A stretch of 64,000 bases of DNA, taken from the NCBI GenBank assembly GCA_024641005.1, contig JAHEDX010000008.1, positions 11,881 through 75,880 on the forward strand, given 5' to 3'. Under the pieces are notes generated by a model, which did not search any database, was not told the origin of the DNA, and saw nothing but the letters and a program-made list of their open reading frames with translations. This document shows, in pieces, positions 24,138 through 42,724 of the stretch (positions within the stretch are counted from its first letter, which is position 1; every line of letters starts with the position of its first letter). The DNA is from Acidimicrobiaceae bacterium. GTDB lineage: Bacteria; Actinomycetota; Acidimicrobiia; Acidimicrobiales; Ilumatobacteraceae. The translations under genes and the position numbers were made by a program.

Positions 24138-25178
24138 TCAGGAGTCGGCGACGGGCTCGGCTGTGACCTCGGCGACGATGTCCACCAGTTGAGCGACCGT
24201 GTCGAGACGTTGCCGGGCGGTGCCCGACAGCTTGGCTTGCAGCGTGCTGATCCCGGCGTCGCGATACAGGCGTACCCGCTCGGTGATCATCTCCGGGGTC
24301 CCCAACAAGTTGGTGTGCAGACCGATCTCGATCGGGACGCGGGCTGCCGCCTCGTCGCGTCGCCCCGCTTGCCAGAGTTCGTAGACGGCTTGCACGTCGT
24401 CGCCGTAACCCTGGTTGGTGAATGCCCGGTTGTAGAAGTTGGTGTCAGCGGTGCCCATCGCGCCGATCGTGAAGGCATAGCCATCCGCATGCCGGCGACC
24501 AGCCTCTTCGACGTCGTCGGTGAACTCGACCGCCACGGGCATGATCAGTTCGAGATCGCTCAGCTTCCGTCCTGCCCGTTCGCACCCCGCACGAATCGAC
24601 GACAGGAACACGTCGGCGTGCTCGGGCATGAAGGCGTTGCCCAGCCATCCGTCGGCGATCTCACCGGTCAGCTCGAGGCTCTTCGGCCCGAGCGCAGCGA
24701 TCACCATCGGAATCGGATCGACGGGCGACGCCATCGACCTGATGCCCCGGCCCGAACCTGGTAGCGGCAGCTGATAGGCGACCCCATCGTGTTCCAAGCG
24801 GTCTCCTCGCGCGATCTGCCGAACGATCTCGATCGTGTCCCGCATCGCCGCGAGCGGCTTGTGGAACGGCACCCCGTGCCATGCCTCCATGACCCGTGGG
24901 CCGCTGGACCCGAGACCCAGCACGAGTCGTCCGCCCGACAGTTCTTGCACCGACATCGCCTGCATCGCCAGCATCGCCGGAGTTCGCGCCCCGACCTGCA
25001 CGATGCCGGTGCACAGGCGAATCGTCGAGGTACGGGCCGCCAGGAAGGCGAGCGGGGTCACTGCGTCGTGACCCCATGCCTCGGCAATCCAGACCGACGT
25101 CGCGCCGATCCGCTCGGCGTCGACGACGAATTCGGCGTCGTCGGGCGACGACACCCCGACCCCGACCCCAACGTGCAT
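24138..25178 (-). CDS. LLM class F420-dependent oxidoreductase
   Basis: 346 residues: S-V-W-I-A-E-A-W-G-H-D, T-S-T-I-R-L-C-T-G-I-V-Q, G-R-L-V-L-G-L-G-S-S-G-P-R-V, and I-A-D-G-W-L-G-N. These match the methylene-H4MPT-reductase-like F420 branch. TAGGTT on the minus strand (25185-25190) ends 6 nt before the ATG (leaderless type). Its direction and 60-bp spacing allow it to be read with the upstream aminotransferases. Substrate unknown. Confidence 0.85.
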   Translation of the reverse strand: MHVGVGVGVSSPDDAEFVVDAERIGATSVWIAEAWGHDAVTPLAFLAARTSTIRLCTGIVQVGARTPAMLAMQAMSVQELSGGRLVLGLGSSGPRVMEAWHGVPFHKPLAAMRDTIEIVRQIARGDRLEHDGVAYQLPLPGSGRGIRSMASPVDPIPMVIAALGPKSLELTGEIADGWLGNAFMPEHADVFLSSIRAGCERAGRKLSDLELIMPVAVEFTDDVEEAGRRHADGYAFTIGAMGTADTNFYNRAFTNQGYGDDVQAVYELWQAGRRDEAAARVPIEIGLHTNLLGTPEMITERVRLYRDAGISTLQAKLSGTARQRLDTVAQLVDIVAEVTAEPVADS

Positions 25179-25238: not shown

Positions 25239-26516
25239 TCAGGAGGCGATCATCCTCAGCGAGTCGGCTACCGCAGAGACCAAGCGATCGCAGTCGTCGT
25301 CGGTGATCGCGGTCGACAGGGCCATGTACCCCCGTGGGGCCAGATAGATGCCACGGTCGACCAATTCGTGGAAGAGCAGTTCCTTCAGTACCGGGTCGGC
25401 AGTCGCCAGGTCGGCAGGCGATGTGACGGGGCCCGTCACGGTATGGATGGTCATCAGCGATCCCATCCCGCTGACGCACAACGGCAGCGGGGACGCCTCG
25501 AACACGGCGGTCAGGCGGGACATGACCGAATCGCCTGTCACGAACAGGGCGTCGAGCACGTCGGCGGTGAGCAACTCGCCGAGCGCAGTGGCGCCGGCGG
25601 CCATCGTGACGACATTGTTGTTGAATGTCCCGCCATGGGTCAGGTCTCCGCCGCGCGCCGGATCGAAGGCCGCCATCACGTCGGCTCTCCCACCGAACGC
25701 GCCGAAGGTCATGCCGCCTGCGAGGTACTTGCCGAGCGTGGTGAGATCCGGCGTGATGCCCAGCCGGGCCTGCACGCCCCCGGCGGCCATCCGTGAGGTC
25801 ATCACCTCGTCGAAGATCAGCAGCGCTCCCACTTCGTCGCAGCGAGCGCGCAGCGCGCTCAGGAACTCGGATGTGGCCGGGATGCATCCGGCGCTGCCCA
25901 TCATCGGCTCGACGAGTACCGCCGCCGTCGCTCGGTCGACGACATGCCCGACGTCATGGAGATCGTTGAAGCGCATCCGGTCGAACTCGAACGGAGCGAG
26001 CAGCGCTTCACCGCCATGGCCGAAGTAGAGCAATCCACCGTGGTAGGCGGCGTCACACACCACGATGCGGTCGCGGCCCGTGTGGTGACGGGCGAGCTGG
26101 ATCGCCATCAGGTTCGCCTCGGTGCCCGAGTTGGTGAAACGCACCTGTTCGATCGACGGGAAGCGATCCACGACCGCTTCGGCAAATCGGACCTCGTCGG
26201 TGTGCACCCCGCCGAAGCTCCAGCCACGGCCGAGCGTTGCGATCACCGCGGCCTCGACGGGTCCAGGGTCGTGTCCGAGCAGCCCCGCCGAGTAGTCGCC
26301 CAGGAAGTCGACGTACTCGTGTCCGTCGACATCGACGATGTGTGAACCGGTCGCCGACGCGATCCGGAACGGGAACGGCGCGAAGTCGAGCACAGATCGG
26401 GTCGATCCACCCGGCATCACGAGCGCGGCTCGTTCGAAGATCTCTCGCGATCTCGGCCGTTTGGAGGTGTACCGCTCCCTGGCTCGATCGAGTGGTGTCG
26501 CGAACCGGTTGCTCAT
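25239..26516 (-). CDS. Class III PLP aminotransferase/aminomutase, glutamate-1-semialdehyde aminomutase-like
   Basis: 425 residues of PLP fold type I. The N-terminal M-P-G-G-S-T-R-S-V resembles HemL and beta-amino acid transaminases; N-S-G-T-E-A-N binds the cofactor phosphate, D-E-V is the pyridine-N contact, and the Schiff-base lysine is in T-L-G-K-Y-L-A-G-G-M-T-F-G-A-F-G-G. It is a paralogue rather than the housekeeping HemL: its neighbours are beta-amino-acid catabolic genes, and no haem gene is adjacent. A beta-amino acid or 2,3-aminomutase-type substrate is possible. Confidence 0.8.
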   Translation of the reverse strand: MSNRFATPLDRARERYTSKRPRSREIFERAALVMPGGSTRSVLDFAPFPFRIASATGSHIVDVDGHEYVDFLGDYSAGLLGHDPGPVEAAVIATLGRGWSFGGVHTDEVRFAEAVVDRFPSIEQVRFTNSGTEANLMAIQLARHHTGRDRIVVCDAAYHGGLLYFGHGGEALLAPFEFDRMRFNDLHDVGHVVDRATAAVLVEPMMGSAGCIPATSEFLSALRARCDEVGALLIFDEVMTSRMAAGGVQARLGITPDLTTLGKYLAGGMTFGAFGGRADVMAAFDPARGGDLTHGGTFNNNVVTMAAGATALGELLTADVLDALFVTGDSVMSRLTAVFEASPLPLCVSGMGSLMTIHTVTGPVTSPADLATADPVLKELLFHELVDRGIYLAPRGYMALSTAITDDDCDRLVSAVADSLRMIAS

Positions 26517-26615: not shown

Positions 26616-27941
26616 TCAGTCGAGCAGGGCGAGCACCTCGTCGATGATCGCCAGTCCGGCCTGCGCGTCCTCGATGCTGATCGTGCACGGCGGCACGACA
26701 TGGATGCGGTTGCCGGCGACGAACGGCCACAGGCCCCGCGACTTACAGGCCGCTGCGACGGTCTGCATCGTCGCAGCATCGACCGGTGCGCGCGACGCTT
26801 GATCGCTGACCAGCTCGATCGCCCAGAACACGCCGAGCCCGCGCACCTCGCCGACGCACGCGTGCCGCCCGGCCATCGAATGCAGCGCCGGGCCGATCAC
26901 CTCGGCCCCGATCATCCGTGCGTGCTCGACGACCCCTTCGTCCTCGAAGATGTTGATCGACGCGACTGCGGTCGCGCATGCGAGCGGATGGCCGGAGTAG
27001 GTCAGTCCACCCTGGTAGACGCGTTCACGGAATGTGTCGGCGATGCGCTGTGAGATGGCGACGCCGCCGAGCGGCACATAGCCCGAGTTGACACCTTTGG
27101 CGAAGGTGATCAGGTCGGGGACGACACCCCAGTGGTTGATTGCGAACCACTCACCGCATCGACCGAATCCGGCCATCACCTCGTCGGCGATCATGACGAT
27201 CCCGAACTCGTCGCACAGCTCGCGCACACCGGCGAGGTAGCCGTCGGGTGGAACGAGGATGCCGTTCGTGCCGACGACCGTCTCGAGCACGATTGCAGCG
27301 ATGCGGTCGCCGCCCTCGCCGACGACGACGTCGCGTAGGTGCTCGAGCGCCCGAACCGACTCCTCCTGCTCGGTGGTGGCGTGGAACGCCGAGCGGTAGA
27401 GATAGGGCCCGAAGAACTTGATGGCCCCTGGCATCCCGGGCTCGCTGTCGAACCGGCGCGACTCGCCCGTCAGACTGATCGCGGCCGTGGTGCTGCCGTG
27501 GTAGCTGCGGTACGCGGACAGCACCTTGCTGCGCCCGGTGTGTCCCTTCGCCAGACGGATCGCGTTCTCGATCGCTTCGGCCCCACCGTTGGTGAAGAAC
27601 ACCATGTTCAGGTCACCCGGCGCCCGCTCGGCGATCAGGCGGGCAGCTTCGCTGCGCATGTCGTTGGCCGCGCTCGGCGCGATCGTGCACAGTCGGTCGG
27701 CCTGCGCCTTGATCGCCTCGATCATCCGGGGATGTTGATGGCCGAGATTGACGTTGACGAGCTGGCTGGAGAAATCGAGCCACGTGTTGCCGTGGTCGTC
27801 CCAGATCCGCGAGCCCGAACCCCCGGCGATCACCGTTGGCTGGAGGGGCCCCTGCGCCGACCACGAGTGGAAGACATGGGCGCGATCGTTGGCGAATGCC
27901 GACGCGAGGTACTGGTCCGTCGGAACATCGAGACTGGTCAT
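26616..27941 (-). CDS. Class III omega-aminotransferase, likely beta-alanine/beta-aminoisobutyrate transaminase
   Basis: 441 residues with F-F-T-N-G-G-A-E-A-I-E-N (phosphate binding), S-Y-H-G-S-T, I-A-D-E-V-M-A-G-F-G-R and the lysine in F-A-K-G-V-N-S-G-Y-V-P-L-G-G. This is the omega-amino acid:pyruvate class. In the reductive pyrimidine pathway the beta-amino acid released by beta-ureidopropionase is deaminated to a semialdehyde; this gene diverges from that enzyme's gene across 103 bp. TAGGCT on the minus strand (27948-27953) ends 6 nt before the ATG. Confidence 0.87.
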   Translation of the reverse strand: MTSLDVPTDQYLASAFANDRAHVFHSWSAQGPLQPTVIAGGSGSRIWDDHGNTWLDFSSQLVNVNLGHQHPRMIEAIKAQADRLCTIAPSAANDMRSEAARLIAERAPGDLNMVFFTNGGAEAIENAIRLAKGHTGRSKVLSAYRSYHGSTTAAISLTGESRRFDSEPGMPGAIKFFGPYLYRSAFHATTEQEESVRALEHLRDVVVGEGGDRIAAIVLETVVGTNGILVPPDGYLAGVRELCDEFGIVMIADEVMAGFGRCGEWFAINHWGVVPDLITFAKGVNSGYVPLGGVAISQRIADTFRERVYQGGLTYSGHPLACATAVASINIFEDEGVVEHARMIGAEVIGPALHSMAGRHACVGEVRGLGVFWAIELVSDQASRAPVDAATMQTVAAACKSRGLWPFVAGNRIHVVPPCTISIEDAQAGLAIIDEVLALLD

Positions 27942-27963
27942 CGGGTCAGCCTAAATCCCTGGC

Positions 27964-28008
27964 AGTGACATGTCACTAAGGTGAGCACTCGGGCAGGGTG
28001 TCCCTGCC
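27964..28008. promoter_or_regulatory. Operator-like palindromes between divergent catabolic genes
   Basis: AGTGACATGTCACT (27964-27977) is a perfect 14-bp palindrome. It lies 10 bp upstream of the -10 of the aminotransferase, where its -35 would be, and upstream of the beta-ureidopropionase operon, whose candidate -10 is TACAGT at 28015-28020. GGCAGGG-TGT-CCCTGCC (27992-28008) is a second inverted repeat. A single regulator could control both directions. No regulator gene is immediately adjacent. Confidence 0.6.
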
Positions 28009-28044
28009 TGGTTGTACAGTTGACCCGAGCCCTGAGGGGGAACG

Positions 28045-28887
28045 ATGGCGAACACAGTTCGAGCAGCCCTGTTGCAGACCGACTGGACCGGCGACAAGGA
28101 ATCGATGATCGACAAGCACGAGGAACAGGCTCGTGCAGCTGCCGCTCAGGGCGCCCAGGTGATGTGCTTCCAGGAGTTGTTCTACGGCCCCTATTTCTGC
28201 CAGGTGCAGGACGCCGAGTACTACGCGTACACCGAGGAGATCCCGAACGGGCCGACCACCCAGCGGTTCCAGTCGGTCGCCAAGGAGTTGGGCATGGTGC
28301 TGGTGCTGCCGATGTACGAGATCGTGCAGGCCGGTCTGTACTACAACACCGCAGCGGTCATCGACGCCGATGGCACCTATCTCGGCAAGTATCGCAAGCA
28401 GCACATCCCGCAGGTCAAGGGCTTCTGGGAGAAGTTCTATTTCACGCCGGGCAGCGGCGGCTACCCGGTGTTCGACACCGCCGTGGGCAAGGTCGGCGTG
28501 TACATCTGCTACGACCGGCACTTCCCCGAGGGTTGGCGTTGTCTCGGCCTCAACGGGGCCGAGATCGTGTTCAACCCGTCTGCCACGCACCGTGGGTTGT
28601 CCGAGTACCTGTGGAGCATCGAGCAGCCGGCCGCTGCGTGCGCCAACATGTATTACGTCGGAGCGATCAACCGGGTCGGCATCGAGCCGCTCGGCGAGAA
28701 CGACTTCTACGGTCAGAGCTACTTCGTCAACCCGCGCGGTCAGTACGTCGGCGAGAAGGGTGATCCGCACAACCCTGAGCTGATCGTGCGCGACCTCGAC
28801 CTCGGCCTGATTCGTGAGGTCCGCGACGGATGGCAGTTCTACCGCGATCGCCGCCCCGAGGCGTACGACGAAATCACGGCCCGCTGA
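28045..28887 (+). CDS. Beta-ureidopropionase (N-carbamoyl-beta-alanine amidohydrolase), nitrilase superfamily
   Basis: 280 residues with the nitrilase triad E44 (C-F-Q-E-L-F), K118 (K-Y-R-K-Q-H-I-P) and C155 (Y-I-C-Y-D-R-H-F-P-E). The K-x-H-I-P and C-Y-D-R-H-F-P-E signatures match the beta-ureidopropionase/carbamoylputrescine hydrolase branch. It cleaves N-carbamoyl-beta-alanine to beta-alanine, CO2 and ammonia, step three of reductive uracil breakdown. A strong GGGGGAA precedes the ATG. Dihydropyrimidinase follows after 72 bp that contain a large inverted repeat. Confidence 0.92.
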   Translation: MANTVRAALLQTDWTGDKESMIDKHEEQARAAAAQGAQVMCFQELFYGPYFCQVQDAEYYAYTEEIPNGPTTQRFQSVAKELGMVLVLPMYEIVQAGLYYNTAAVIDADGTYLGKYRKQHIPQVKGFWEKFYFTPGSGGYPVFDTAVGKVGVYICYDRHFPEGWRCLGLNGAEIVFNPSATHRGLSEYLWSIEQPAAACANMYYVGAINRVGIEPLGENDFYGQSYFVNPRGQYVGEKGDPHNPELIVRDLDLGLIREVRDGWQFYRDRRPEAYDEITAR

Positions 28888-28897
28888 ACCCGAACCC

Positions 28898-28934
28898 GCG
28901 TAACGGTCTGGTGCCAGGCACCAAACCGTTACGC
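28898..28934. repeat. REP-like long inverted repeat
   Basis: Two 18-nt arms (28898-28915 and 28917-28934) flank a single central A with one mismatch (28908/28924). The core is TGGTGCC-A-GGCACCA flanked by CGTAACGGT and ACCGTTACG. It begins 11 bp after the beta-ureidopropionase stop and ends 15 bp before the Shine-Dalgarno of dihydropyrimidinase. It could act as an mRNA-stabilising or attenuating hairpin, or as a mobile palindromic element. There is no T-tract. Confidence 0.9.
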
Positions 28935-28959
28935 CGAGAGCTGATCTGGAGGAATCTCG

Positions 28960-30375
28960 ATGACACGCACTTTGATCACCAACGGCATGATCGTCTCTGC
29001 CACCGGGCGAGCGTCCGGTGACGTCCTGATCGACGGCGAGACGATCGCCGCGATCCTCGCGCCCGGCCAGGCGGCCGGTCTCGGCATCTCCGCCGATCGC
29101 ACGATCGACGCGACCGGCAAGTACGTCGTGCCCGGGGGCATCGACGTGCACACCCACATGGAGCTGCCGTTCGGTGGAACCGAGGCCAGTGACACGTTCG
29201 AGACCGGAACGGTGGCCGCAGCCTGGGGTGGGGTCACCACGATCGTCGACTTCGCGGTGCAGAACACCAACACCAGCGTGCACGAGCGGCTCGCCGAGTG
29301 GCACGAGAAGGCGGCCGGCAACTGCGCCATCGACTACGGCTTCCACCAGATCATCGGCGGCGTCGACGAGGAGTCGCTGAAGGCGATGACCTATCTGGTC
29401 GACAACGAAGGCATCACGAGCTTCAAGCTGTTCATGGCCTACCCCGGCGTCCTCTACAGCGACGATGGCCAGATCCTGCGGGCGATGCAGAACGCATCCG
29501 AGTCGGGGGCGATGATCATGATGCACGCCGAGAACGGCATCGCGATCGACGTGCTCGTGGCCCAGTCGATCGCGCGAGGCGACACCGATCCCCGTTTCCA
29601 CTCGTTGACCCGCCCGGCAGAGATGGAGGGCGAGGCGACACATCGCGCCATCCAGCTTGCCAAGGTGGCCGGCAACGTGCCGCTCTACATCGTGCACATG
29701 TCGGCTTCAGAGGCGCTCGAGGAGGTCGCTGCAGCCCAGCACGCCGGCCTCAACGTGTTCGGCGAAACCTGCCCGCAATACCTCTACCTCTCGCTCGAGG
29801 ATCACCTCGCCCAGCCCGGCTTCGAGGGGGCCAAGTGGGTGTGCTCGACACCGTTGCGCACCAAGCACCAGCATCACCAGAACGATCTCTGGAAGGGTCT
29901 GCGCATGAACGAGTTGGCGATCGTGTCGACCGATCACTGCCCGTTCTGCTTCAAAGACCAGAAAGAGCTCGGGCTCGGTGACTTCTCCAAGATCCCCAAC
30001 GGCATCGGGGGAGTCGAGCACCGGATGGAGCTGCTCTATCAGGGTGTCGTGACCGGTGAGATCAGCCTCGAGCGCTGGGTCGAGACCTGCGCCACCACAC
30101 CTGCTCGCATGTTCGGTCTCGACCGCAAGGGCGAGATCGCCCCGGGCTTCGATGCCGATGTCCTGATCTGGGATCCCAACAACAGGACCAAGATCGGGAT
30201 CAACGACAAGCATCACATGAACATGGACCATTCGGCTTACGAGGGGTTCGAGATCGACGGCAAGGTCGACACGGTCATCAGCCGTGGCACCGTGGTCGTC
30301 GAGAACGACACCTTCGTCGGCAAGGTGGGTCACGGCAAGTACGTCAAGCGTGGTCTCAGCCGCTATCTCCACTGA
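28960..30375 (+). CDS. hydA: Dihydropyrimidinase (D-hydantoinase)
   Basis: 471 residues of the amidohydrolase superfamily. All di-zinc ligands are visible: H64-T-H66, carboxylated K156 (S-F-K-L-F-M), H189 (M-M-H-A-E-N), H246 (V-H-M-S) and D325 (S-T-D-H-C-P-F). The spacing and G-G-I-D-V-H-T-H-M-E are those of dihydropyrimidinase. It opens 5,6-dihydrouracil or dihydrothymine to the N-carbamoyl-beta-amino acid. GGAGGAAT lies 6-7 nt before the ATG. The gene lies between beta-ureidopropionase and the semialdehyde dehydrogenase. Confidence 0.96.
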   Translation: MTRTLITNGMIVSATGRASGDVLIDGETIAAILAPGQAAGLGISADRTIDATGKYVVPGGIDVHTHMELPFGGTEASDTFETGTVAAAWGGVTTIVDFAVQNTNTSVHERLAEWHEKAAGNCAIDYGFHQIIGGVDEESLKAMTYLVDNEGITSFKLFMAYPGVLYSDDGQILRAMQNASESGAMIMMHAENGIAIDVLVAQSIARGDTDPRFHSLTRPAEMEGEATHRAIQLAKVAGNVPLYIVHMSASEALEEVAAAQHAGLNVFGETCPQYLYLSLEDHLAQPGFEGAKWVCSTPLRTKHQHHQNDLWKGLRMNELAIVSTDHCPFCFKDQKELGLGDFSKIPNGIGGVEHRMELLYQGVVTGEISLERWVETCATTPARMFGLDRKGEIAPGFDADVLIWDPNNRTKIGINDKHHMNMDHSAYEGFEIDGKVDTVISRGTVVVENDTFVGKVGHGKYVKRGLSRYLH

Positions 30376-30467
30376 TACTCACGGTCTGTTCGGCGTTCCG
30401 CGTCGACCCTTCCGTCCCCGTAACTCGTCGCTGGCGTTTGCCCCGTCACGGCGCCTCCCAAGAACCA

Positions 30468-30486
30468 CCGGGCCGTCTCGGCCCGG
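30468..30486 (+). terminator. Hairpin upstream of the semialdehyde dehydrogenase gene
   Basis: CCGGGCCG-TCT-CGGCCCGG is a perfect 8-bp stem with a 3-nt loop. It may partially terminate transcription after dihydropyrimidinase or shield the downstream mRNA; the Shine-Dalgarno AAGGA follows about 10 nt later. Confidence 0.5.
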
Positions 30487-30507
30487 CCCTCCAGAAGGAC
30501 CCAACTC

Positions 30508-31992
30508 ATGAACAGCATTCAGCATTGGATCGACGGGAAGATCGTCGAGTCGACGTCGGGTCGCACCGCGCCCGTGTACAACCCGGCGTTGGGGGAACAG
30601 ACCGGCGCCGTGGCGCTCGCTTCCGTCGGCGAGGTCGATACGGCGGTGGCCGCGGCGGCGGCAGCGTTGCCGGCTTGGCGGGCGACCAGTCTGTCGAAGC
30701 GGGCCGAGATCCTGTTCCGGATGCGCGAGCTGGTCGACGCGAACCGCAAGGAGATCGCGACGCTGCTCACGTCCGAGCACGGCAAGGTGTTGTCGGATGC
30801 GATGGGCGAGGTGGCTCGAGGGCTCGAGAACATCGAATTCGCGTGTGGAGTACCGCATCTGCTCAAGGGCGGCTTCAGCGAGCAGGCGGCGACGGGTGTC
30901 GACGTCTACTCGATCCGTCAACCGCTCGGTGTCGTCGCCGGAATCACACCGTTCAACTTCCCCGCCATGGTGCCGATGTGGATGTTCGCGAACGCCTTGG
31001 CATGTGGCAACACCTTCGTGCTCAAGCCGAGCGAGAAGGACCCTTCGGTGGCACTGTTCCTGGCTGAACTGTTGGCGCAGGCGGGACTGCCGGCCGGTTG
31101 TTTCAACGTCGTGCAAGGCGACAAGGTGGCGGTCGACCGTTTGCTCGAACACCCCGATGTCAAGGCCGTCAGCTTCGTCGGCTCGACGCCGATCGCGAAG
31201 TACATCTACGAGACCGGCACCGCCAACGGAAAGCGGGTGCAGGCGCTGGGTGGCGCAAAGAACCACATGCTCGTGTTGGCCGACGCGGACCTCGACATGG
31301 CTGCCGACGCGGCGATCGGCGCGGCGTACGGCTCGGCAGGCGAGCGGTGCATGGCGATCAGCGTCGTGCTCGCGTCCGATGCGATCGCCGACGATCTCGT
31401 CGCCAAGATCGCCGAGCGGATCCCGGCGGTCAAGGTGGGTCCGGGCAACCAGCCCGACAGCGAGATGGGCCCACTGATCACTGCCGAGCACCGCGACAAG
31501 GTCGCCGGCTACATCGACGGTGCGCCCGCCGAGGGTGCCACGATCGTCGTCGACGGCCGCCCGTCCCAGGCCACCGACGGGTTCTTCATCAACCCGACCC
31601 TCATCGACAACGTGCGTCCTGGCATGGCGTGCTACGACCATGAGATCTTCGGCCCGGTGCTGGCGATCATGCGGGTGCACGGCTACGAGGACGGCGTCGC
31701 CACCATCAACGCCAACCCGTTCGCCAACGGCACGGCGATCTTCACTCGCGACGGTGGCGCGGCACGCCAGTTCCAGTTCGACATCGAGGTGGGCATGGTC
31801 GGCATCAATGTGCCGATCCCGGTGCCGGTCAGCTACTACAGCTTCGGTGGGTGGAAGGCCAGCCTGTTCGGCGATACCCACATGTACGGCCCGGAAGGCA
31901 TCAACTTCTACACCCGCGGCAAGGTCGTCACCAGCCGTTGGCCCGACCCGGCCAAGTCGACCGTCGACCTCGGCTTCCCCGAGACGCGATGA
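30508..31992 (+). CDS. mmsA: CoA-acylating methylmalonate/malonate-semialdehyde dehydrogenase
   Basis: 494 residues of the aldehyde dehydrogenase superfamily. The catalytic cysteine is C281 (G-S-A-G-E-R-C-M-A-I-S), and the usual general-base glutamate is replaced in A-K-N252-H-M-L-V, which is diagnostic for the CoA-dependent MmsA branch. It converts malonate semialdehyde to acetyl-CoA and methylmalonate semialdehyde to propionyl-CoA with NAD and release of CO2. Here it would finish degradation of beta-alanine and beta-aminoisobutyrate produced from uracil and thymine. Confidence 0.94.
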   Translation: MNSIQHWIDGKIVESTSGRTAPVYNPALGEQTGAVALASVGEVDTAVAAAAAALPAWRATSLSKRAEILFRMRELVDANRKEIATLLTSEHGKVLSDAMGEVARGLENIEFACGVPHLLKGGFSEQAATGVDVYSIRQPLGVVAGITPFNFPAMVPMWMFANALACGNTFVLKPSEKDPSVALFLAELLAQAGLPAGCFNVVQGDKVAVDRLLEHPDVKAVSFVGSTPIAKYIYETGTANGKRVQALGGAKNHMLVLADADLDMAADAAIGAAYGSAGERCMAISVVLASDAIADDLVAKIAERIPAVKVGPGNQPDSEMGPLITAEHRDKVAGYIDGAPAEGATIVVDGRPSQATDGFFINPTLIDNVRPGMACYDHEIFGPVLAIMRVHGYEDGVATINANPFANGTAIFTRDGGAARQFQFDIEVGMVGINVPIPVPVSYYSFGGWKASLFGDTHMYGPEGINFYTRGKVVTSRWPDPAKSTVDLGFPETR

Positions 31993-32112
31993 TGTGTCCG
32001 CCACCACGTGCACTCAGGCAGGTGCGCCCCATCGATCAGATGACGGTGCGGGTGGTGGCTCGCACCACGGCGACGTGACTTCGTCGGACAACCCAAGGAG
32101 CAAATTACCAAC

Positions 32113-33129
32113 ATGGACATCGGCATCGTCTTGCAGACCACCCCGCCCGCGTTACGGGTGATCGAGCTCGCGAAACGCGCTGAATCCCTGGGTTTCTCAC
32201 ACGTGTGGGCGTTCGACTCCCACATCTTGTGGGAGGAGCCGTACGTGATCTTCAGCCAGATCCTCGCCGAGACCCGCAACGTGATCGTCGGGCCGATGGT
32301 CACCAATCCGTCCACCCGTGATTGGACCGTGACGGCCAGCACCTATGCCACGCTCAACGAGATGTACGGCAACCGCACCATCTGCTCGATGGGTCGAGGT
32401 GATTCGGCGGTTCGCGTGACCAACGGCAAGCCGACCACGCTCGCCACGATGGGTGAATCGATCCACGTCATCAGAGAACTCGCCAACGGTCGCAGCGTGG
32501 ACTACAAGGGGTCGACGATCACATTGCCGTGGGCATCGAAGTCGCGACTCGAGGTGCTCGGTGCCGGCTACGGGCCCAAGGCGCTCAAACTGATCGGCGA
32601 GACCTGCGACGGTTTCGTCCTGCAGCTCGCCGATCCGCAGATCGCCGAGTGGACCATCACCAGCGTGCGCACCGCAGCCGAGCAGGCCGGGCGCAACCCG
32701 GACGATCTCACGATCGTCGTCGCCGCGCCCGCCTATGTGGGTGACGACCTGCCGTACATGCGCGACCAGTGCCGCTGGTTCGGTGGCATGGTCGGCAACC
32801 ATGTGGCCGACATCGTCGCCCGCTACGGCGACGATGCCCCGGTGCCCCAGGCGCTCACCGACTACATCAAGCACCGCGAGGGATACGACTACAACCAGCA
32901 CGGACGGACCGGCAACACGCACGCGGCGTTCGTGCCCGACGAGATCATCGACCGGTTCTGCATCCTCGGCCCGGTCGAGGCTCACATCGAGCGCCTGCAG
33001 CAGCTGAGGGAGCTCGGCGTCGATCAATTCGCGATCTATCTGCAGCACGACGGCAAGGACCACACCTTGCTGCAATACGGCGAGCACATCATTCCGGGCT
33101 TCAACGAGCACGTCCTCGCCAAGTCGTGA
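32113..33129 (+). CDS. LLM class F420-dependent oxidoreductase in the pyrimidine operon
   Basis: 338 residues of the F420-dependent luciferase-like fold: F-S-H-V-W-A-F-D-S-H, V-G-P-M-V-T-N-P-S-T-R-D, M-G-R-G-D-S-A-V-R, and L-E-V-L-G-A-G-Y-G-P-K-A-L-K-L-I-G-E-T-C-D-G. It resembles the TIGR03842-type subgroup. It is co-directional between mmsA and an ABC importer (5 bp to the next gene). AAGGAG lies 12 nt before the ATG. No dihydropyrimidine dehydrogenase is present in the window, so reduction of the pyrimidine ring with F420H2 is an attractive but untested function. Confidence 0.87.
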   Translation: MDIGIVLQTTPPALRVIELAKRAESLGFSHVWAFDSHILWEEPYVIFSQILAETRNVIVGPMVTNPSTRDWTVTASTYATLNEMYGNRTICSMGRGDSAVRVTNGKPTTLATMGESIHVIRELANGRSVDYKGSTITLPWASKSRLEVLGAGYGPKALKLIGETCDGFVLQLADPQIAEWTITSVRTAAEQAGRNPDDLTIVVAAPAYVGDDLPYMRDQCRWFGGMVGNHVADIVARYGDDAPVPQALTDYIKHREGYDYNQHGRTGNTHAAFVPDEIIDRFCILGPVEAHIERLQQLRELGVDQFAIYLQHDGKDHTLLQYGEHIIPGFNEHVLAKS

Positions 33130-33133
33130 TGCC

Positions 33134-34006
33134 GTGATCCGTCGCGCTGCCCGTCGTACCGTGCTGTTCTGCATCGCGCTGTTCCTGGTGGCGTGCGCAT
33201 GGGAGCTGTACAAGGTGGTCGGCCCCGACGATGGTGGCTCGGTGTTCGGGATCACGATGATCCCCAAGGCGTCGAATCGGGCGATGCCCCACACCTGGGA
33301 CATGGTGCAGCGGCTCGGCCAACCCGAGAACCGTGGCGGAGATGACCCCATCTGGGTCACCGTCGCCGGTTACTCGTGGTACACGTTCCGGTTGGCGCTC
33401 GTGGGTCTGGTGCTCGGGGTCGCGGTCGGTGTCGGACTCGCCGTGTTGATGGCCCGTTTCCGGTTCGCGGAGCGCGGACTGTTGCCGTGGATCATCATGT
33501 CGCAGACGGTGCCCTTGATCGCGCTGGCGCCCCAGGTGGTCAGCTGGAGCGGCCGGATCGACATCTTCGGATGGGAGTGGCCCAGGTGGGCGTCGGTCTG
33601 TGTGCTCGCCGCGTTCCTGGCGTTCTTCCCGGTCGCGGTCGGAACCTTGCGGGGCCTCAAATCCGCACCGGCCGCGTCGCTCGAACTGATGGACAGCTAC
33701 GCGGCATCGTGGAACAGGACCCTCTTCAAGCTGCGCTTCCCGGCCGCCGTTCCCCATATCGTGCCGGCCCTCAAGCTGGCGGCGACGCTGTCGGTCGTCG
33801 GTGTGGTCGTCGCCGAGATCTCGACCGGTATCCGGGGTGGGATCGGACGCGCCGTGTTGTCGTATCAGCAGGCCTCGACGGGTGATCCGACCAAGGTCTA
33901 TGCGGCCGTGCTCGGCGCTGCAGCCCTCGGCCTGATGTTGTTCGGTCTCGTGGTGTTGATCGACGTGTTGTTGATGAGGAATCGCCCGCAGGAGAACGCA
34001 GCATGA
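33134..34006 (+). CDS. ABC transporter permease (BPD_transp_1)
   Basis: 290 residues with about six membrane helices and the EAA-like loop G-T-L-R-G-L-K-S-A-P-A-A-S-L-E-L-M-D-S-Y-A-A-S that contacts the ATPase. A large extracytoplasmic segment (about 30-80) follows the first helix. GTG 33134 begins 5 bp after the LLM stop, so translation is probably coupled. It is one of two permeases, which should form a heterodimer with the product of 34841-35626. Confidence 0.9.
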   Translation: MIRRAARRTVLFCIALFLVACAWELYKVVGPDDGGSVFGITMIPKASNRAMPHTWDMVQRLGQPENRGGDDPIWVTVAGYSWYTFRLALVGLVLGVAVGVGLAVLMARFRFAERGLLPWIIMSQTVPLIALAPQVVSWSGRIDIFGWEWPRWASVCVLAAFLAFFPVAVGTLRGLKSAPAASLELMDSYAASWNRTLFKLRFPAAVPHIVPALKLAATLSVVGVVVAEISTGIRGGIGRAVLSYQQASTGDPTKVYAAVLGAAALGLMLFGLVVLIDVLLMRNRPQENAA

Positions 34007-34043
34007 TGCGCCTTGCGACGGGCGGAACGATCGAGGAGCAGTC

Positions 34044-34844
34044 ATGAGCGCGGTCATCGTCAATCAGGTCTCGAAGGTGTTCAACGTCGACAAACCGAAC
34101 CACGTCGACGCGTTGGCCGAGATCGAGCTGGTGATCGAACCGGGTGAGTTCGTTTCGCTGATCGGCCCGTCCGGCTGTGGCAAGTCGACCTTGTTGCGCC
34201 TGATCGCCAACCTGATCGAGCCGACGGTCGGCAATGTGCTCGTGAACGGCAAGCCGGCGGCGCAGGCACGCCTCGATCAGGACTACGGCATGGCCTTCCA
34301 GCAGGCCGGTCTGTTCGACTGGCGCTCGGTCGAGAAGAACATCGAGTTGCCGCTCGAACTGAAGGGGTGGGACAAGGCGAGGCGTCGGGCACGCGCGCAA
34401 GAAATGCTCGAACTCGTCAAACTCCCGGAATTCGCCCGTCACATGCCGTGGCAATTGTCTGGTGGCATGCAGCAACGTGTTGCGATCGCCAGGGCGCTGG
34501 CCGCCCACCCGCCCTTGCTGTTGATGGACGAACCCTTCGGCGCTCTCGACGAGATGACGCGCGAGCACATGCAGGCCGAGCTGCTTCAGATCTGTGCCGC
34601 CACCGGTACCACCGTGGTGTTCGTGACGCACTCGATCCCCGAGGCGGCCTACCTGTCCGACCGGGTGGTCGTCATGTCGCCGCGTCCGGGTCGGATCACC
34701 GAGATCATCGACGTCGACCTGGGTGCCAAGCGCAACGAGGACACACGCGAAGCCGATGTGTTCTACGACTCGATCACGTCGATCCGTGAGGCGCTGCGCG
34801 GCATCGAGCACGCCGCCGTCCGTGGTGGGGTCGACGACCGGTGA
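34044..34844 (+). CDS. ABC transporter ATP-binding protein
   Basis: 266 residues with Walker A G41-P-S-G-C-G-K-S-T, signature L-S-G-G-M-Q-Q (138-144), Walker B L-L-L-M-D162-E-P-F-G-A-L-D and the switch histidine in V-T-H-S. The closest families are the nitrate/sulfonate/taurine and hydroxymethylpyrimidine importers (SsuB/TauB/ThiZ type). GAGGAG lies 6 nt before the ATG, and the stop overlaps the next start (GTGA). Confidence 0.94.
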   Translation: MSAVIVNQVSKVFNVDKPNHVDALAEIELVIEPGEFVSLIGPSGCGKSTLLRLIANLIEPTVGNVLVNGKPAAQARLDQDYGMAFQQAGLFDWRSVEKNIELPLELKGWDKARRRARAQEMLELVKLPEFARHMPWQLSGGMQQRVAIARALAAHPPLLLMDEPFGALDEMTREHMQAELLQICAATGTTVVFVTHSIPEAAYLSDRVVVMSPRPGRITEIIDVDLGAKRNEDTREADVFYDSITSIREALRGIEHAAVRGGVDDR

Positions 34845-35626
34845 GCCTGCGTCGTGTCCTGCAGGCCGTGGTTCCGCCGGCGATCTTCGGGCTGGTGTTC
34901 GTGCTCGGATGGGAAGCAATCGTGAAGGGCTTCGACCTCAAGCCCTACTTCCTGCCGGCGCCCAGTGCGATCTGGAGCGCGTTCACCGACAATCTCGATC
35001 TGGTTCGCAGTGCGGCGATGGTCTCCGGCGCCAACGCTCTCGTCGGTCTGTTGGTCGGGACGCTGCTGGGCGTCGCTGCCAGCTTCCTGCTGATGAGATT
35101 CCAGATCCTCAACGAGCTGGTCTCACCGTTGGCGATCGCCCTCAACGCCGTGCCGATCATCGTGCTCGTGGCCGTCTTCCAGAACATGTTCGCCAGCACG
35201 AGCGAGATCCCGCGGCGACTGATGGTGACGCTGATCGTGTTCTTCATCGTGCTCGTCAATGTCGCCAAGGGGCTCCGTCAAGTGCACCCGACACATCTCG
35301 AGCTGATGCGGTCGTATGCTGCGTCTCCGGCCGCAATCTTGACCAAGACCCGTATTCCGAACGCCTTGCCCTATCTGTTCACTGCGTTGAAGATCGCGGC
35401 GCCCACCGCGGTCATCACCGCCTTCGTCTCCGAGTACTTCGGCGGCCGGCAGAACGGTCTCGGCTATTTCATCCCGTCCAACTTCGCCAACTCGAAGAAT
35501 GCTGTCGCTTGGGCGTACGTCATCGGGGCATGCCTGCTGGGCTTGACCTTCTACCTGGTCTCCGTACTGTTGGAGAGCATCATCAAACAAAGTCGGGGCG
35601 CTGCCCCGGGGGGAGCAACAACATGA
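34841..35626 (+). CDS. ABC transporter permease (BPD_transp_1)
   Basis: 261 residues, six predicted helices, with the coupling loop A-K-G-L-R-Q-V-H-P-T-H-L-E-L-M-R-S-Y-A-A-S. It starts with GTG overlapping the ATPase stop by 4 nt, and its own stop overlaps the substrate-binding protein start by 4 nt. The unit is thus permease, ATPase, permease, binding protein, all translationally coupled. Confidence 0.92.
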   Translation: MSLRRVLQAVVPPAIFGLVFVLGWEAIVKGFDLKPYFLPAPSAIWSAFTDNLDLVRSAAMVSGANALVGLLVGTLLGVAASFLLMRFQILNELVSPLAIALNAVPIIVLVAVFQNMFASTSEIPRRLMVTLIVFFIVLVNVAKGLRQVHPTHLELMRSYAASPAAILTKTRIPNALPYLFTALKIAAPTAVITAFVSEYFGGRQNGLGYFIPSNFANSKNAVAWAYVIGACLLGLTFYLVSVLLESIIKQSRGAAPGGATT

Positions 35627-36882
35627 GAACACGCAAGATCACCAAGGTGATCGGTGCGCTCGCCGCCTTGTCGATCGTCGCCGCTGCCTGCGGTGGAGAC
35701 GACGACAGCACGAGCAGCACCGATGCGCCGGACGCGACCGATGCGCCCAGTGCGACCGATGCACCCGACGCCACGGATGCGCCGGCTGCGACGGATGCAC
35801 CCACCGCGACGGATGCACCGGCTGCGACGGATGCACCGCAGTGCGAAACACCCGACGACGTGAAGCTGCAGCTGCAGTGGTTCACCCAGGCCCAGTTCGC
35901 CGGCTACTACGCGGCGATCGATCAGGGCTTCTACGCGGGCCAGTGTCTGAACGTCGAGATCCTCGAGGGTGGCGTCGACATCGTGCCGCAGACACAGCTC
36001 GCGAACGGCGACGTCGATTTCGCGTTGGCGTGGGTCCCCAAGGCGCTGGCCAGCCGTGAGGCGGGCGCGAACATCGTGAACATCGCGCAGATCTACCAGC
36101 GTTCCGGCACCTTGCAGGTGTCGTTCGTCGACAAGGGCATCACGTCGCCGGCCGACTTCGCCGGCAAGAAGATCGGCAACTGGGGCTACGGCAACGAGTA
36201 CGAGGTGTTCGCGGCCCTGGGGGCCGAGGGTCTCGATCCGGCAGCCGATGTCGAGCTGGTCGGTCAGAACTTCGACATGAACGCGCTGCTCGCCGGTGAG
36301 ATCGATGCCGCCGAGGCGATGACCTACAACGAGTACGCCCAGGTGCTGGAGGCCGTGAACACCGACACGGGAGAGCTCTACACCCCCGCTGACTTCAATG
36401 TGATCAGCTACGAAGAGGTCGGGGTCGGGATGCTCCAGGACGCGATCTGGGCCGACGCCGACAAGCTGGCCAATGACGCGGGGTACAAGGACATCGCCAC
36501 CCGGTTCGTCGCGGCCTCGATGGAGGGTTGGACCTATTGCCGTGACAATGTCGAGTCGTGCCGTGACATCGTGCTCGCCGCCGGCCCGACCCTCGGCGCC
36601 AGCCACCAGCTGTGGCAGATGAACGAGGTCAACAAGCTGGTGTGGCCGGCGACGAATGGCATCGGGTACATCGACCAGGCCGCTTGGGACCGCACCGTCG
36701 AGATCGCGCAGGGTACGCCGAATCTCGAGGGTGCCACCGTGTTGACGGCCGCGCCGACGGATGGTGCCTTCACGAACGAGATCGTCGAGGCCGCCTGGGC
36801 GCTGCTCGGCGACATGGGTCTCGATCTCTACGGAGAGGGCTACACGCCGGTCGAGGTGACCCTCAACGAGGGCGGCAACTGA
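35623..36882 (+). CDS. ABC transporter substrate-binding lipoprotein, NMT1/THI5-like
   Basis: 419 residues: a signal peptide with lipobox (V-A-A-A-C-G-G), a repetitive Thr-Asp-Ala-Pro linker (33-72), then the NMT1/THI5 domain starting K-L-Q-L-Q-W-F-T-Q-A-Q-F-A-G-Y-Y-A-A, typical of proteins binding thiamine-pyrimidine precursors, riboflavin or alkylsulfonates. The downstream G-N-W-G-Y-G-N-E-Y-E-V-F segment is also shared with pyrimidine-type binders. ATG 35623 overlaps the permease stop (ATGA), with GGGGAG 8 nt upstream. Membership in the pyrimidine operon suggests a pyrimidine or ureide ligand. A strong hairpin ends the operon. Confidence 0.92.
   Translation: MRTRKITKVIGALAALSIVAAACGGDDDSTSSTDAPDATDAPSATDAPDATDAPAATDAPTATDAPAATDAPQCETPDDVKLQLQWFTQAQFAGYYAAIDQGFYAGQCLNVEILEGGVDIVPQTQLANGDVDFALAWVPKALASREAGANIVNIAQIYQRSGTLQVSFVDKGITSPADFAGKKIGNWGYGNEYEVFAALGAEGLDPAADVELVGQNFDMNALLAGEIDAAEAMTYNEYAQVLEAVNTDTGELYTPADFNVISYEEVGVGMLQDAIWADADKLANDAGYKDIATRFVAASMEGWTYCRDNVESCRDIVLAAGPTLGASHQLWQMNEVNKLVWPATNGIGYIDQAAWDRTVEIAQGTPNLEGATVLTAAPTDGAFTNEIVEAAWALLGDMGLDLYGEGYTPVEVTLNEGGN
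35719..35838 (+). repeat. 18-bp coding tandem repeat (TDAPxA linker)
   Basis: Nearly seven copies of an 18-bp unit encode T-D-A-P-x-A, where x is D, S, D, A, T, A. It forms a flexible acidic linker between the lipid anchor and the binding domain. The copies differ mostly by single bases, so the number may vary between strains. Confidence 0.9.
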
Positions 36883-36933
36883 TCGGTTCCTCCACATGAG
36901 CGTGGTCTGATCCGCGCGACGTGACGCAGTGCG

Positions 36934-36963
36934 CAGTAGGGCCGGTGACTTCCGGCCCTACTG
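36934..36963 (+). terminator. Strong hairpin terminator of the ABC/pyrimidine operon
   Basis: A perfect 12-bp stem (CAGTAGGGCCGG / CCGGCCCTACTG) with the loop TGACTT starts 51 bp after the binding-protein stop. There is no T-tract. It probably ends the transcript that starts before 28045. Confidence 0.75.
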
Positions 36964-36993
36964 TCGCGTCCGGGTTCACGGCATCCTGTTCGG

Positions 36994-37470
36994 ATGCGAA
37001 TTGCCCCGCTGCTCGTCGCCGTGTCCCTCACCTCGTCTCTTGCCCTCTCTGCGTGCGGCGGCGGTGATGACGACAGCAGCTCCACCACGACCGGGCCGAC
37101 GGTGCCGGGGCAGATCGACACCGGCCTCGACCCCGTCGAACTGCCCGACGAATTCCCCTCGGAGGTGCCGTTGCCTACTGGGCTCGTGATCCTCGACGCG
37201 CCGGTGTTGAGCGGCGGGACGATCGAGCTCTACGAGGTCACGGGTTGGCATGAGGGGGATCCCGTCGAGGTCGCCACCGATTATCTCGACGAACTCGAAC
37301 GGATCGGATACGAGGTCGTCAGCCGTACCGAGACACCGAACAACCTGTTCTTCATCGCTCAGAACGACGACTGGTTCGTCAGCGCCGGCTTCTTCCCCGA
37401 CCCGATCCGCCTGGAAGGGACCTCGGTCGGGATCACCGTCGGCCCGGCCGGCGACGCTTCCTCGGGTTGA
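36994..37470 (+). CDS. Small secreted lipoprotein, unknown function
   Basis: 158 residues: signal peptide with lipobox (A-L-S-A-C), a short Asp/Ser/Thr linker, then a compact domain with P-D-E-F-P-S-E-V-P-L-P-T-G, G-W-H-E-G-D-P-V-E-V-A-T-D-Y-L and V-G-I-T-V-G-P. The P-x-D-x-P-x-P motif is common in actinobacterial surface lipoproteins of unknown role. It follows the terminator of the importer operon, so it is probably separately expressed; CATCCT lies 6 nt before the ATG. Confidence 0.7.
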   Translation: MRIAPLLVAVSLTSSLALSACGGGDDDSSSTTTGPTVPGQIDTGLDPVELPDEFPSEVPLPTGLVILDAPVLSGGTIELYEVTGWHEGDPVEVATDYLDELERIGYEVVSRTETPNNLFFIAQNDDWFVSAGFFPDPIRLEGTSVGITVGPAGDASSG

Positions 37471-41689: not shown

Positions 41690-42724
41690 CTATGACGCGG
41701 CCCGAACGGCCCGTGCCACCTCGCCCCATCTGCCGGCATCCGCCGGGTTGCGGTGGATCGACTCTTCGGCGAGGTACATCACCAGTCGGGCAGCAGTACC
41801 CGAGTAGCGCTCGATCAGTCGGTCCGCGAGCTCGTCCCATCGACATACGACGGCGAAGTCGTCGAGCATCTCGTCGGTGATCATCGCCGCCATCTCCTCG
41901 AACTTGCCCTGCCGGATCAGCGATCCGAGCTGTGGGGTCACACCCTCGTAGCCCAGGTCGTCGAACTGGAACGCGTAGTTGGGCGTCGAGCCGTAGAACG
42001 CGATCTGGCTGCGGGCCCGGCTCACCAGGGCTGCCCTGTCCTCGGGCGTGTCGCCGGGGGCGGCGAACACCGGAATCGTGAGTTCGACCTCGGAAGGGTC
42101 GCGGTTGGCCGACTCGGCCCCGGCGGCAACCCCGGGCAACAGTCGGTGTTCGATGTAGTGCATCGAGTGCAACGGGTGAACGTGCACTCCGTCGGCCACC
42201 TCACCGGCGACCCTGGTCATGAGCGGACCTACGGCGCTGATGTCGACCTTCACATCACCGAACTCGTGGCGAGGTGGTGACCATGCCGCCGGCAGGTAGT
42301 TCAACTGGTAGAAGGGCCCGTCGTGAGCGAGCTGCTCGTCGCCTCGGAACGCACGCACACAGGCCTTCACGGCGGCCACGTAGTCGCGCAAGCGAGCCGC
42401 AGCCGGTTTGAACTCCGCGGAGTATCGGCGCACCACGTGCCCCTTCACCTGGCTGCCGAGGCCGAGCCGGAATCGGCCCTGTGTGTTCTGTGCCATCTCC
42501 CAGGCCACTGCCGCAGAGATCATCGGGCTGCGTGGGAACGCGACGGCGATTCCGGTGCTGAAGTGCAGGTCGGGGGCTGCCATCGCCGCTGCTGCGATCT
42601 TCATCCACGGAACCTCTGAGGTCTCGGTGAACAGCATCCCCGAGAAGCCGTTGGCCTCGAGCAGGCGAGCAAAATCAGCGGTGTCGGCCCAGGTTCCGGC
42701 ACCGGTCATGAGATCGAATTCCAC
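41690..42724 (-). CDS. LLM class F420-dependent oxidoreductase
   Basis: 344 residues with L-E-A-N-G-F-S-G-M-L-F-T-E-T, H-F-S-T-G-I-A-V-A-F-P-R-S-P, G-R-F-R-L-G-L-G-S-Q-V-K-G-H-V-V-R-R-Y and G-E-V-A-D-G-V-H-V-H-P. The Q-V-K-G-H motif is typical of the TIGR03617-like mycobacterial subgroup. GTG 42724 follows AGGGG at a good distance. It is 66 bp upstream of the LprG-like gene but a link is not evident. Confidence 0.87.
   Translation of the reverse strand: MEFDLMTGAGTWADTADFARLLEANGFSGMLFTETSEVPWMKIAAAAMAAPDLHFSTGIAVAFPRSPMISAAVAWEMAQNTQGRFRLGLGSQVKGHVVRRYSAEFKPAAARLRDYVAAVKACVRAFRGDEQLAHDGPFYQLNYLPAAWSPPRHEFGDVKVDISAVGPLMTRVAGEVADGVHVHPLHSMHYIEHRLLPGVAAGAESANRDPSEVELTIPVFAAPGDTPEDRAALVSRARSQIAFYGSTPNYAFQFDDLGYEGVTPQLGSLIRQGKFEEMAAMITDEMLDDFAVVCRWDELADRLIERYSGTAARLVMYLAEESIHRNPADAGRWGEVARAVRAAS

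Follow-up and report, generated by a model that had tools for sequence, protein, structure and literature searches.

What enzyme reduces uracil in a bacterium that encodes the rest of a reductive pyrimidine pathway and no recognizable dihydropyrimidine dehydrogenase (DPD)? The question is raised by a 64,000-nucleotide stretch of DNA from an Acidimicrobiaceae bacterium (contig JAHEDX010000008.1, positions 11,881 to 75,880; hereafter, the window). Positions 26616-36882 of the window hold a closely packed plus-strand array of ureidopropionase, dihydropyrimidinase, semialdehyde dehydrogenase, luciferase-like monooxygenase (LLM) and four-gene ABC importer genes, with a divergent transaminase gene. 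The remaining pathway steps each have a candidate gene at this locus, and uracil reduction alone is left unassigned. In our best reading, this is an operon for reductive pyrimidine degradation whose DPD has given way to an unrelated enzyme. The LLM protein, a member of family TIGR03842, is probably an F420H2-dependent uracil/thymine reductase that acts in place of DPD.

The genes of the locus are as follows.

26616..27941, minus strand: class III transaminase, PRK06062 subfamily (NCBIfam PRK06062, 735 bits, cut-off 472)
28045..28887, plus strand: nitrilase-type beta-ureidopropionase (N-carbamoyl-beta-alanine amidohydrolase), 280 aa (phmmer against the PDB)
28960..30375, plus strand: dihydropyrimidinase, D-hydantoinase family (TIGR02033, 535 bits, cut-off 393)
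30508..31992, plus strand: CoA-acylating malonate/methylmalonate-semialdehyde dehydrogenase (TIGR01722, 717 bits, cut-off 448.5)
32113..33129, plus strand: LLM oxidoreductase, proposed F420H2-dependent uracil/thymine reductase (TIGR03842, 573 bits, cut-off 295)
33134..34006, plus strand: ABC importer permease 1 (PF00528, 69 bits)
34044..34844, plus strand: ABC importer ATPase (PF00005, 116 bits)
34841..35626, plus strand: ABC importer permease 2 (NCBIfam permease models, all under cut-off, best 55.8 bits)
35623..36882, plus strand: NMT1/THI5-type substrate-binding lipoprotein (PF09084, 112 bits, scored on an over-extended open reading frame)

The original prediction, made from the window alone, had named these pathway genes and the importer and had set the LLM gene between the semialdehyde dehydrogenase and the transporter, and this arrangement holds for every gene.

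Searches for Dihydropyrimidine Dehydrogenase

Searches with PF01180 and PreA did not find DPD in the genome from which the window comes, a draft of 175 contigs that is 94% complete. The PF01180 matches in this genome are PyrD (PRK07259, 322 bits, over cut-off), a PRK07565-type protein (411 bits) and one 22-bit fragment, and the PyrD gene adjoins an open reading frame read by eye as carB. Because the draft is incomplete, we examined two relatives that are each a single contig, one of the same genus (G031) and one of the same family (G113), and DPD was not found in either. Their DHO_dh-type matches over cut-off are of the PyrD and PRK07565 types in G031 and PyrD in G113, the rest being fragments of at most 24 bits. 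Classification covered the matches over cut-off in these three genomes (two in the window genome, two in G031 and one in G113) and one match each from Desertimonas flava, Cryobacterium N22 and C. arcticum, which are PyrD; the remaining DHO_dh-type matches, including the best match of each Microbacteriaceae genome, were left unclassified.

PreA was over its cut-off in none of 149 Actinomycetota genomes, the top score being 193 bits. In the control, E. coli PreA scored 688 bits against the cut-off of 335, and 2 of 14 known genomes scored over that cut-off. An overlooked DPD is thus disfavored by the PF01180 and PreA searches, all classified matches being of the PyrD or PRK07565 type. The earlier statement that no DPD is recognizable holds genome-wide as far as searched, and the two single-contig relatives agree with it.

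Conservation of the LLM Gene with the Pyrimidine Pathway

A single LLM gene near hydA means little alone, because the genome contains 50 PF00296 (LLM-family) matches. Five of these lie within the window, among them 24138-25178 and 41690-42724. We followed the LLM gene through 80 loci from public genomes, which were the best 80 of 226 confirmed stretches and hence its closest relatives, with thresholds of at least 150 bits for dihydropyrimidinase and at least 200 bits for nitrilase-type ureidopropionase. Both genes are present in all 57 loci with at least 4 kb of upstream sequence. Among the 27 loci with full flanks (9 kb on both sides), each is found in 27 of 27, together with the transaminase in 20, the semialdehyde dehydrogenase in 18 and the binding protein in 21. 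When the threshold is raised to 300 bits, dihydropyrimidinase is retained in 26 of these 27 loci, the exception (L023) having only part of the gene on its contig; when short contigs are counted, dihydropyrimidinase is present in 64 of the 80 loci. No locus of the 80 gave a tblastn match of at least 60 bits to E. coli PreA or PreT. In Microbacteriaceae, the semialdehyde dehydrogenase is often gone from the locus and the LLM gene still lies beside hydA; therefore, the LLM gene travels with the upper pathway. The control gene LLM2, located 7 kb away at 24138-25178 of the same window, is conserved in none of the 27 full-flank loci. Thus, the conservation and the LLM2 control together rule out chance co-location. 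A HemL-like class III aminotransferase gene (25239-26516, minus strand; under the cut-offs of the models shown) adjoins the operon and is likewise conserved in 0/27.

The same association was evident across the 149 Actinomycetota genomes. TIGR03842 is over cut-off in 29 of them, under nine family labels, and all 29 carriers fall among the 44 genomes with TIGR02033 over cut-off (Fisher 3.6e-20, a value that ignores relatedness). The two genes lie no more than 15 kb apart in 23 carriers, 51 kb apart in one and on separate contigs in five. Of 15 loci fetched from these carriers, 13 contain HydA and 7 an NCS1 symporter, and in several the genes for LLM, NCS1, Zn hydrolase, transaminase and HydA are consecutive. 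Conservation of the LLM gene with hydA, which the original prediction had put forward as a check for genomes lacking DPD, was found in the loci with at least 4 kb upstream (57/57) and, as presence in the same genome, in the actinobacterial carriers (29/29). One draft genome of the same family as the window genome (G123) is an exception in that family, with dihydropyrimidinase over cut-off and TIGR03842 not, possibly owing to a gap.

The LLM Protein and Its Nearest Relatives

TIGR03842 (F420_CPS_4043) is a "hypoth_equivalog" family whose name says F420-dependent and whose name and description give no function. The closest named relatives of the window protein by sequence are from Ilumatobacter metagenome-assembled genomes (best, 93% identity), and the LLM proteins of Leisingera (506 bits) and Paracoccus (503 bits) also score over the TIGR03842 cut-off. 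The window genome is probably itself a metagenome-assembled genome from near Ilumatobacter. In a profile search, F420-dependent Mer was closest (1.7e-46) and the best luciferase was at 2.5e-11. A Foldseek search with the AlphaFold model gave the same picture, with F420 enzymes at all of ranks 1-10 (Mer, 5.3e-20) and a luciferase at rank 11. The model has a mean pLDDT of 85, falling to 60-68 at residues 231-270 and to ∼66-71 at residues 31-40 and 91-110. The closest structures are F420-dependent Mer, Adf and FGD2, and identity over the Mer entries is 20-26%.

Comparison with Mer, the closest solved relative by both profile and fold, used the positions for F420 and substrate in Methanocaldococcus jannaschii Mer that are given in the relevant part of PMC11094777. 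Residues V63, D97 and Q171, invariant in 32/32 LLM sequences, align by sequence alignment to the F420-side positions of Mer (cis-peptide Val62, Asp96 and position 178, the last being Gln in that part of PMC11094777 and Asn in the chain as printed). The catalytic Glu6 of Mer is replaced by Val/Cys in the LLM sequences and Phe233 by Met. Retention of the F420-side positions with loss of Glu6 is the picture expected for the same cofactor and a different substrate; the LLM operon also differs from that of Mer, so the substrate is probably different. Candidate substrate-contact residues are R95, R101, Y153, W222, N229 and H230, all invariant. By profile and fold, the LLM protein is closer to the F420-dependent hydride transferases than to the flavin mononucleotide (FMN) monooxygenases. 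The conservation of the gene, the absence of DPD as far as searched and these nearest structures support the original suggestion that the LLM enzyme may be an F420H2-dependent pyrimidine reductase.

Linkage of the LLM Gene to F420 Genes

Linkage of the LLM gene to F420 genes was observed in four settings. In the single Leisingera caerulea plasmid examined, the order is cofG, cofH, cofD, cofC, cofE, npdG, LLM and a TetR_C_3 regulator, such that the LLM gene closes a complete F420-biosynthesis operon that includes the F420:NADPH reductase (npdG). Divergent from it are pntAB, an AptA-type transaminase (750 bits against a cut-off of 500), a Zn-dependent hydrolase, hydA (615 bits against a cut-off of 393) and an NCS1 symporter. 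The NAD(P) transhydrogenase genes in this pyrimidine island (L103, 3245-6271) are a plausible source of NADPH for npdG. In Paracoccus alcaliphilus, the same F420 operon (cofG...npdG) ends in the LLM gene, which is followed by an NMT1-type ABC importer. The third setting is a contig labeled Spirochaetales (JANQHT010000149.1; L023), where LLM, cofE and npdG lie together with cofC and cofD, alongside part of a HydA gene and genes for a transaminase, an NCS2-type permease and a ureidopropionase. The LLM protein of this contig is 82% identical to that of the window, its cofE and npdG products are 63% and 70% identical to those of Leisingera, and its GC content is 0.53-0.68 in 1-kb steps. It is possible that the contig is a mixed, transferred F420-pyrimidine island, or else that it is misbinned. 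In the fourth setting, the marine actinobacterium PHSC20C1, FGD and cofE adjoin the operon. In Cryobacterium PH31, cofC, cofD and cofE lie near the LLM locus.

The LLM protein has matches at E<=1e-40 in 13 plasmid records, and cofE is present in 11 of these as well (ten Leisingera and one Paracoccus). In all, 50 plasmids have cofE at E<=1e-20; therefore, F420 operons serve other enzymes as well, for example in Agrobacterium rubi. The A. rubi plasmid pW2_73_1 carries an F420 island of LLM, cofD, cofC, a single cofG/cofH-like gene, cofE and npdG, together with class III transaminase and biotin-dependent carboxyltransferase genes, and this island probably represents a different F420-dependent catabolic route.

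F420 Biosynthesis Genes in Carrier Genomes

CofH (E<=1e-50) is present in 97 of the 149 Actinomycetota genomes and in 27 of the 29 LLM carriers. The two carriers without a match are both drafts, namely the window genome and a genome of 220 contigs (G119). The latter is also without cofD, cofE and npdG matches, and its congener G087 has cofH and cofD; the single-contig genome of the same genus as the window (G031) has cofH, cofD, cofE and npdG. Of 17 genomes, 5 have NpdG over cut-off, so it is no universal partner of the LLM protein.

A further 13 named genomes were reached through the LLM loci. Without CofH/FbiC at E<=1e-50 are six genomes with cofD and cofE and six with cofE alone, at least one of these having FGD; the CofH-negative set comprises G150-G161 (Desertimonas, Cryobacterium, Glaciihabitans, Microterricola, Salinibacterium and PHSC20C1) and loci L132, L133, L135, L162 and L180. 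Possible explanations for carriers without CofH are uptake of FO or F420 (salvage), an unrecognized FO synthase, or an enzyme that has moved to FMN. The apparent gaps in the F420 gene sets limit the claim more for Salinibacterium than for Acidimicrobiia. On the F420 basis of the original prediction the evidence is mixed: Leisingera, Paracoccus, L023 and PHSC20C1 show strong linkage, but in most of the 13 named carriers the F420 gene set looks incomplete.

Contrary Observations and Alternative Explanations

Several observations weigh against an F420H2-dependent pyrimidine reductase. Of the 44 dihydropyrimidinase-positive genomes, 15 give no match over cut-off for either the LLM gene or PreA, and in G045 the LLM gene and hydA are the pair 51 kb apart. 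Only 5 of the 80 LLM loci have F420 genes in their flanks. The LLM copy on the Paracoccus plasmid has no hydA within 10 kb, and the RutR-like regulator of Leisingera is under both RutR cut-offs (194 and 171 bits). The window draft genome has cofD, cofE and npdG, but cofH was not found. Among the 13 named carriers, whose completeness is unstated, CofH (E<=1e-50) is present in 1, CofD in 7 and CofE in 13, and six of them (five Salinibacterium and PHSC20C1) show cofE only and no NpdG. Finally, HydA-family proteins open hydantoins too, and the amidohydrolase of the window is about as close to N-carbamoylputrescine amidohydrolase; therefore, the substrate ring of the pathway is not proven.

Of the alternatives, the one that survives best is that the enzyme catalyzes the same reaction and uses, or can use, FMN instead of F420, at least in some lineages. 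The LLM proteins form a mixed FMN/F420 superfamily, as described in the relevant part of PMC11094777, and the operon is retained in PHSC20C1 and the five Salinibacterium genomes, where CofD and CofH were not found. However, the one Salinibacterium LLM protein compared (L086) shares 84-86% identity with its counterparts in CofD-positive Microbacteriaceae, the nearest structures are F420 enzymes and, in the four settings described above, the gene is linked to F420 biosynthesis, NpdG or FGD. Because cofE is kept throughout the named genomes and FGD adjoins the PHSC20C1 operon, F420 independence in Salinibacterium stays a rival only, and we regard use of FMN as unlikely.

Slightly less likely again is that the pathway degrades another cyclic ureide, such as a substituted or unsaturated hydantoin, which the LLM enzyme would reduce. 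TIGR02033 is a D-hydantoinase model, and the NCS1 family includes hydantoin permease. The Leisingera NCS1 protein also matches allantoin permease models and the L023 permease is nearest to xanthine permeases, in both cases under cut-off. Beta-amino acid end steps, represented by the AptA-type transaminase over cut-off in Leisingera and the methylmalonate-semialdehyde dehydrogenase of the window, nevertheless argue for a pyrimidine, as do the RutR-like regulator of Leisingera, albeit under cut-off, and the window binding protein, which is nearest to a pyrimidine binder.

RutA belongs to the LLM superfamily and cleaves the uracil ring with FMN and O2. Its likeness as an LLM protein acting on uracil invites the view that the window enzyme works oxidatively, as a RutA-like pyrimidine monooxygenase, or performs an auxiliary step, with dihydrouracil coming from outside or from an unrecognized enzyme, but this is very improbable, since RutA (TIGR03612) is a different NCBIfam family and is absent from the 22 matched by the LLM protein at E<=0.001, hydA would have no role after oxidative ring opening, the LLM gene is linked to F420 genes, and one genome (C. 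arcticum) of the 16 searched has RutA over cut-off. RutA gave no match at E<=1e-20 in the window genome, G031 or G113, which sets the locus apart from the Rut pathway, and a RutA-like role was rejected on the NCBIfam matches and this genome search.

Proposed Pathway

In the proposed pathway, uracil or thymine would be imported by the ABC importer (by an NCS1 or NCS2 symporter in other loci). The TIGR03842 LLM enzyme would then pass hydride from the C5 position of F420H2 to pyrimidine C6, with a proton added to C5 of the ring, yielding 5,6-dihydrouracil or dihydrothymine. Candidate proton donors are the invariant residues Y153, H230, D97 and E42. F420 has a lower potential than NADP and therefore suits reduction of an aromatic ring. 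Dihydropyrimidinase would open the dihydropyrimidine ring, beta-ureidopropionase would release CO2 and ammonia, the transaminase would form (methyl)malonate semialdehyde, and the CoA-acylating dehydrogenase would yield acetyl- or propionyl-CoA. For the LLM step, we infer the substrate, F420 as cofactor, the direction of hydride transfer and the kinetics.

The assignments of the other genes differ in firmness. Dihydropyrimidinase matches a solved dihydropyrimidinase (3sfw) with an E value of 3.2e-137. The solved structure nearest to the transaminase is taurine:2-oxoglutarate aminotransferase (6jix, E 3.7e-107), and the enzyme is likely a beta-alanine/beta-aminoisobutyrate transaminase. For the amidohydrolase, the top phmmer matches in the PDB are CG3027-PA (2vhh, 6.4e-56) and N-carbamoylputrescine amidohydrolase (5h8i, 2.6e-55), followed by beta-ureidopropionases 8pt4 and 6ftq (6ftq, 4.2e-48); the NCBIfam N-carbamoylputrescine amidase model gives 250 bits, under its cut-off of 410. 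The first two matches have nearly equal E values, and the exact carbamoyl substrate rests on gene context. Among solved chains, the binding lipoprotein comes closest to an N-formyl-aminopyrimidine binding protein (3ix1, E 2.7e-12), and it is possibly pyrimidine-binding. It was first contained in a 719-aa open reading frame (34723-36882) that is over-extended, its 5' part overlapping permease 2 in a different frame, and its start is most likely the ATG at 35623, which overlaps the permease 2 stop. A promoter and terminator scan of 27900-37100 gave no signal above chance.

Comparison with Known Systems

The locus resembles the Pyd pathway in having dihydropyrimidinase and beta-ureidopropionase, the latter assignment leaning on context, and differs in that no PreA/PreT or DPYD type was found in the window genome, the first enzyme probably being replaced. 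The LLM enzyme would hold the same pathway position as DPD (PreA/PreT, DPYD; PydA), supplying dihydropyrimidine for dihydropyrimidinase. However, DPD is a flavin/Fe-S enzyme related to dihydroorotate dehydrogenase, in which a cysteine donates the proton to C5, as described in the relevant part of PMC8097209, whereas the window protein is a single-domain LLM barrel. Thus, the pathway is already known and its first enzyme would be new.

The original prediction had put this route forward as one that it had not seen described. Among the matches listed from the open-access literature, none linked F420 to pyrimidine catabolism or gave a function for TIGR03842, and the relevant parts of PMC8097209, PMC9045290, PMC13367373 and PMC10117117, and likewise of PMC11094777, PMC8498797, PMC8305020 and PMC7142369, contain no link between F420 and pyrimidine reduction. 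An analogous idea exists for purines and qualifies that statement: according to the pertinent part of PMC12507026 (2025), an F420-dependent luciferase-family enzyme was suggested to reduce yanthine in the uric acid clusters of Chloroflexota. There too, an LLM (PF00296) protein would replace a PydA/YgfK-type reductase in nucleobase catabolism; the suggestion, as given in that part, concerns a purine pathway in Chloroflexota and comes from gene neighborhoods.

Implications

We lean toward the wider view that TIGR03842 constitutes a new enzyme class, an F420H2-dependent dihydropyrimidine dehydrogenase, and catalyzes the usual first step of the pathway in Actinomycetota, where DPD is absent, and that pyrimidine degradation is the purpose of transferable F420 operon islands in some Proteobacteria. 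If the proposal is true, an unassigned family would gain a function, and biocatalysis a uracil reductase free of iron-sulfur clusters. The reaction would also constitute a new role for F420 and help explain why some bacteria make this cofactor.

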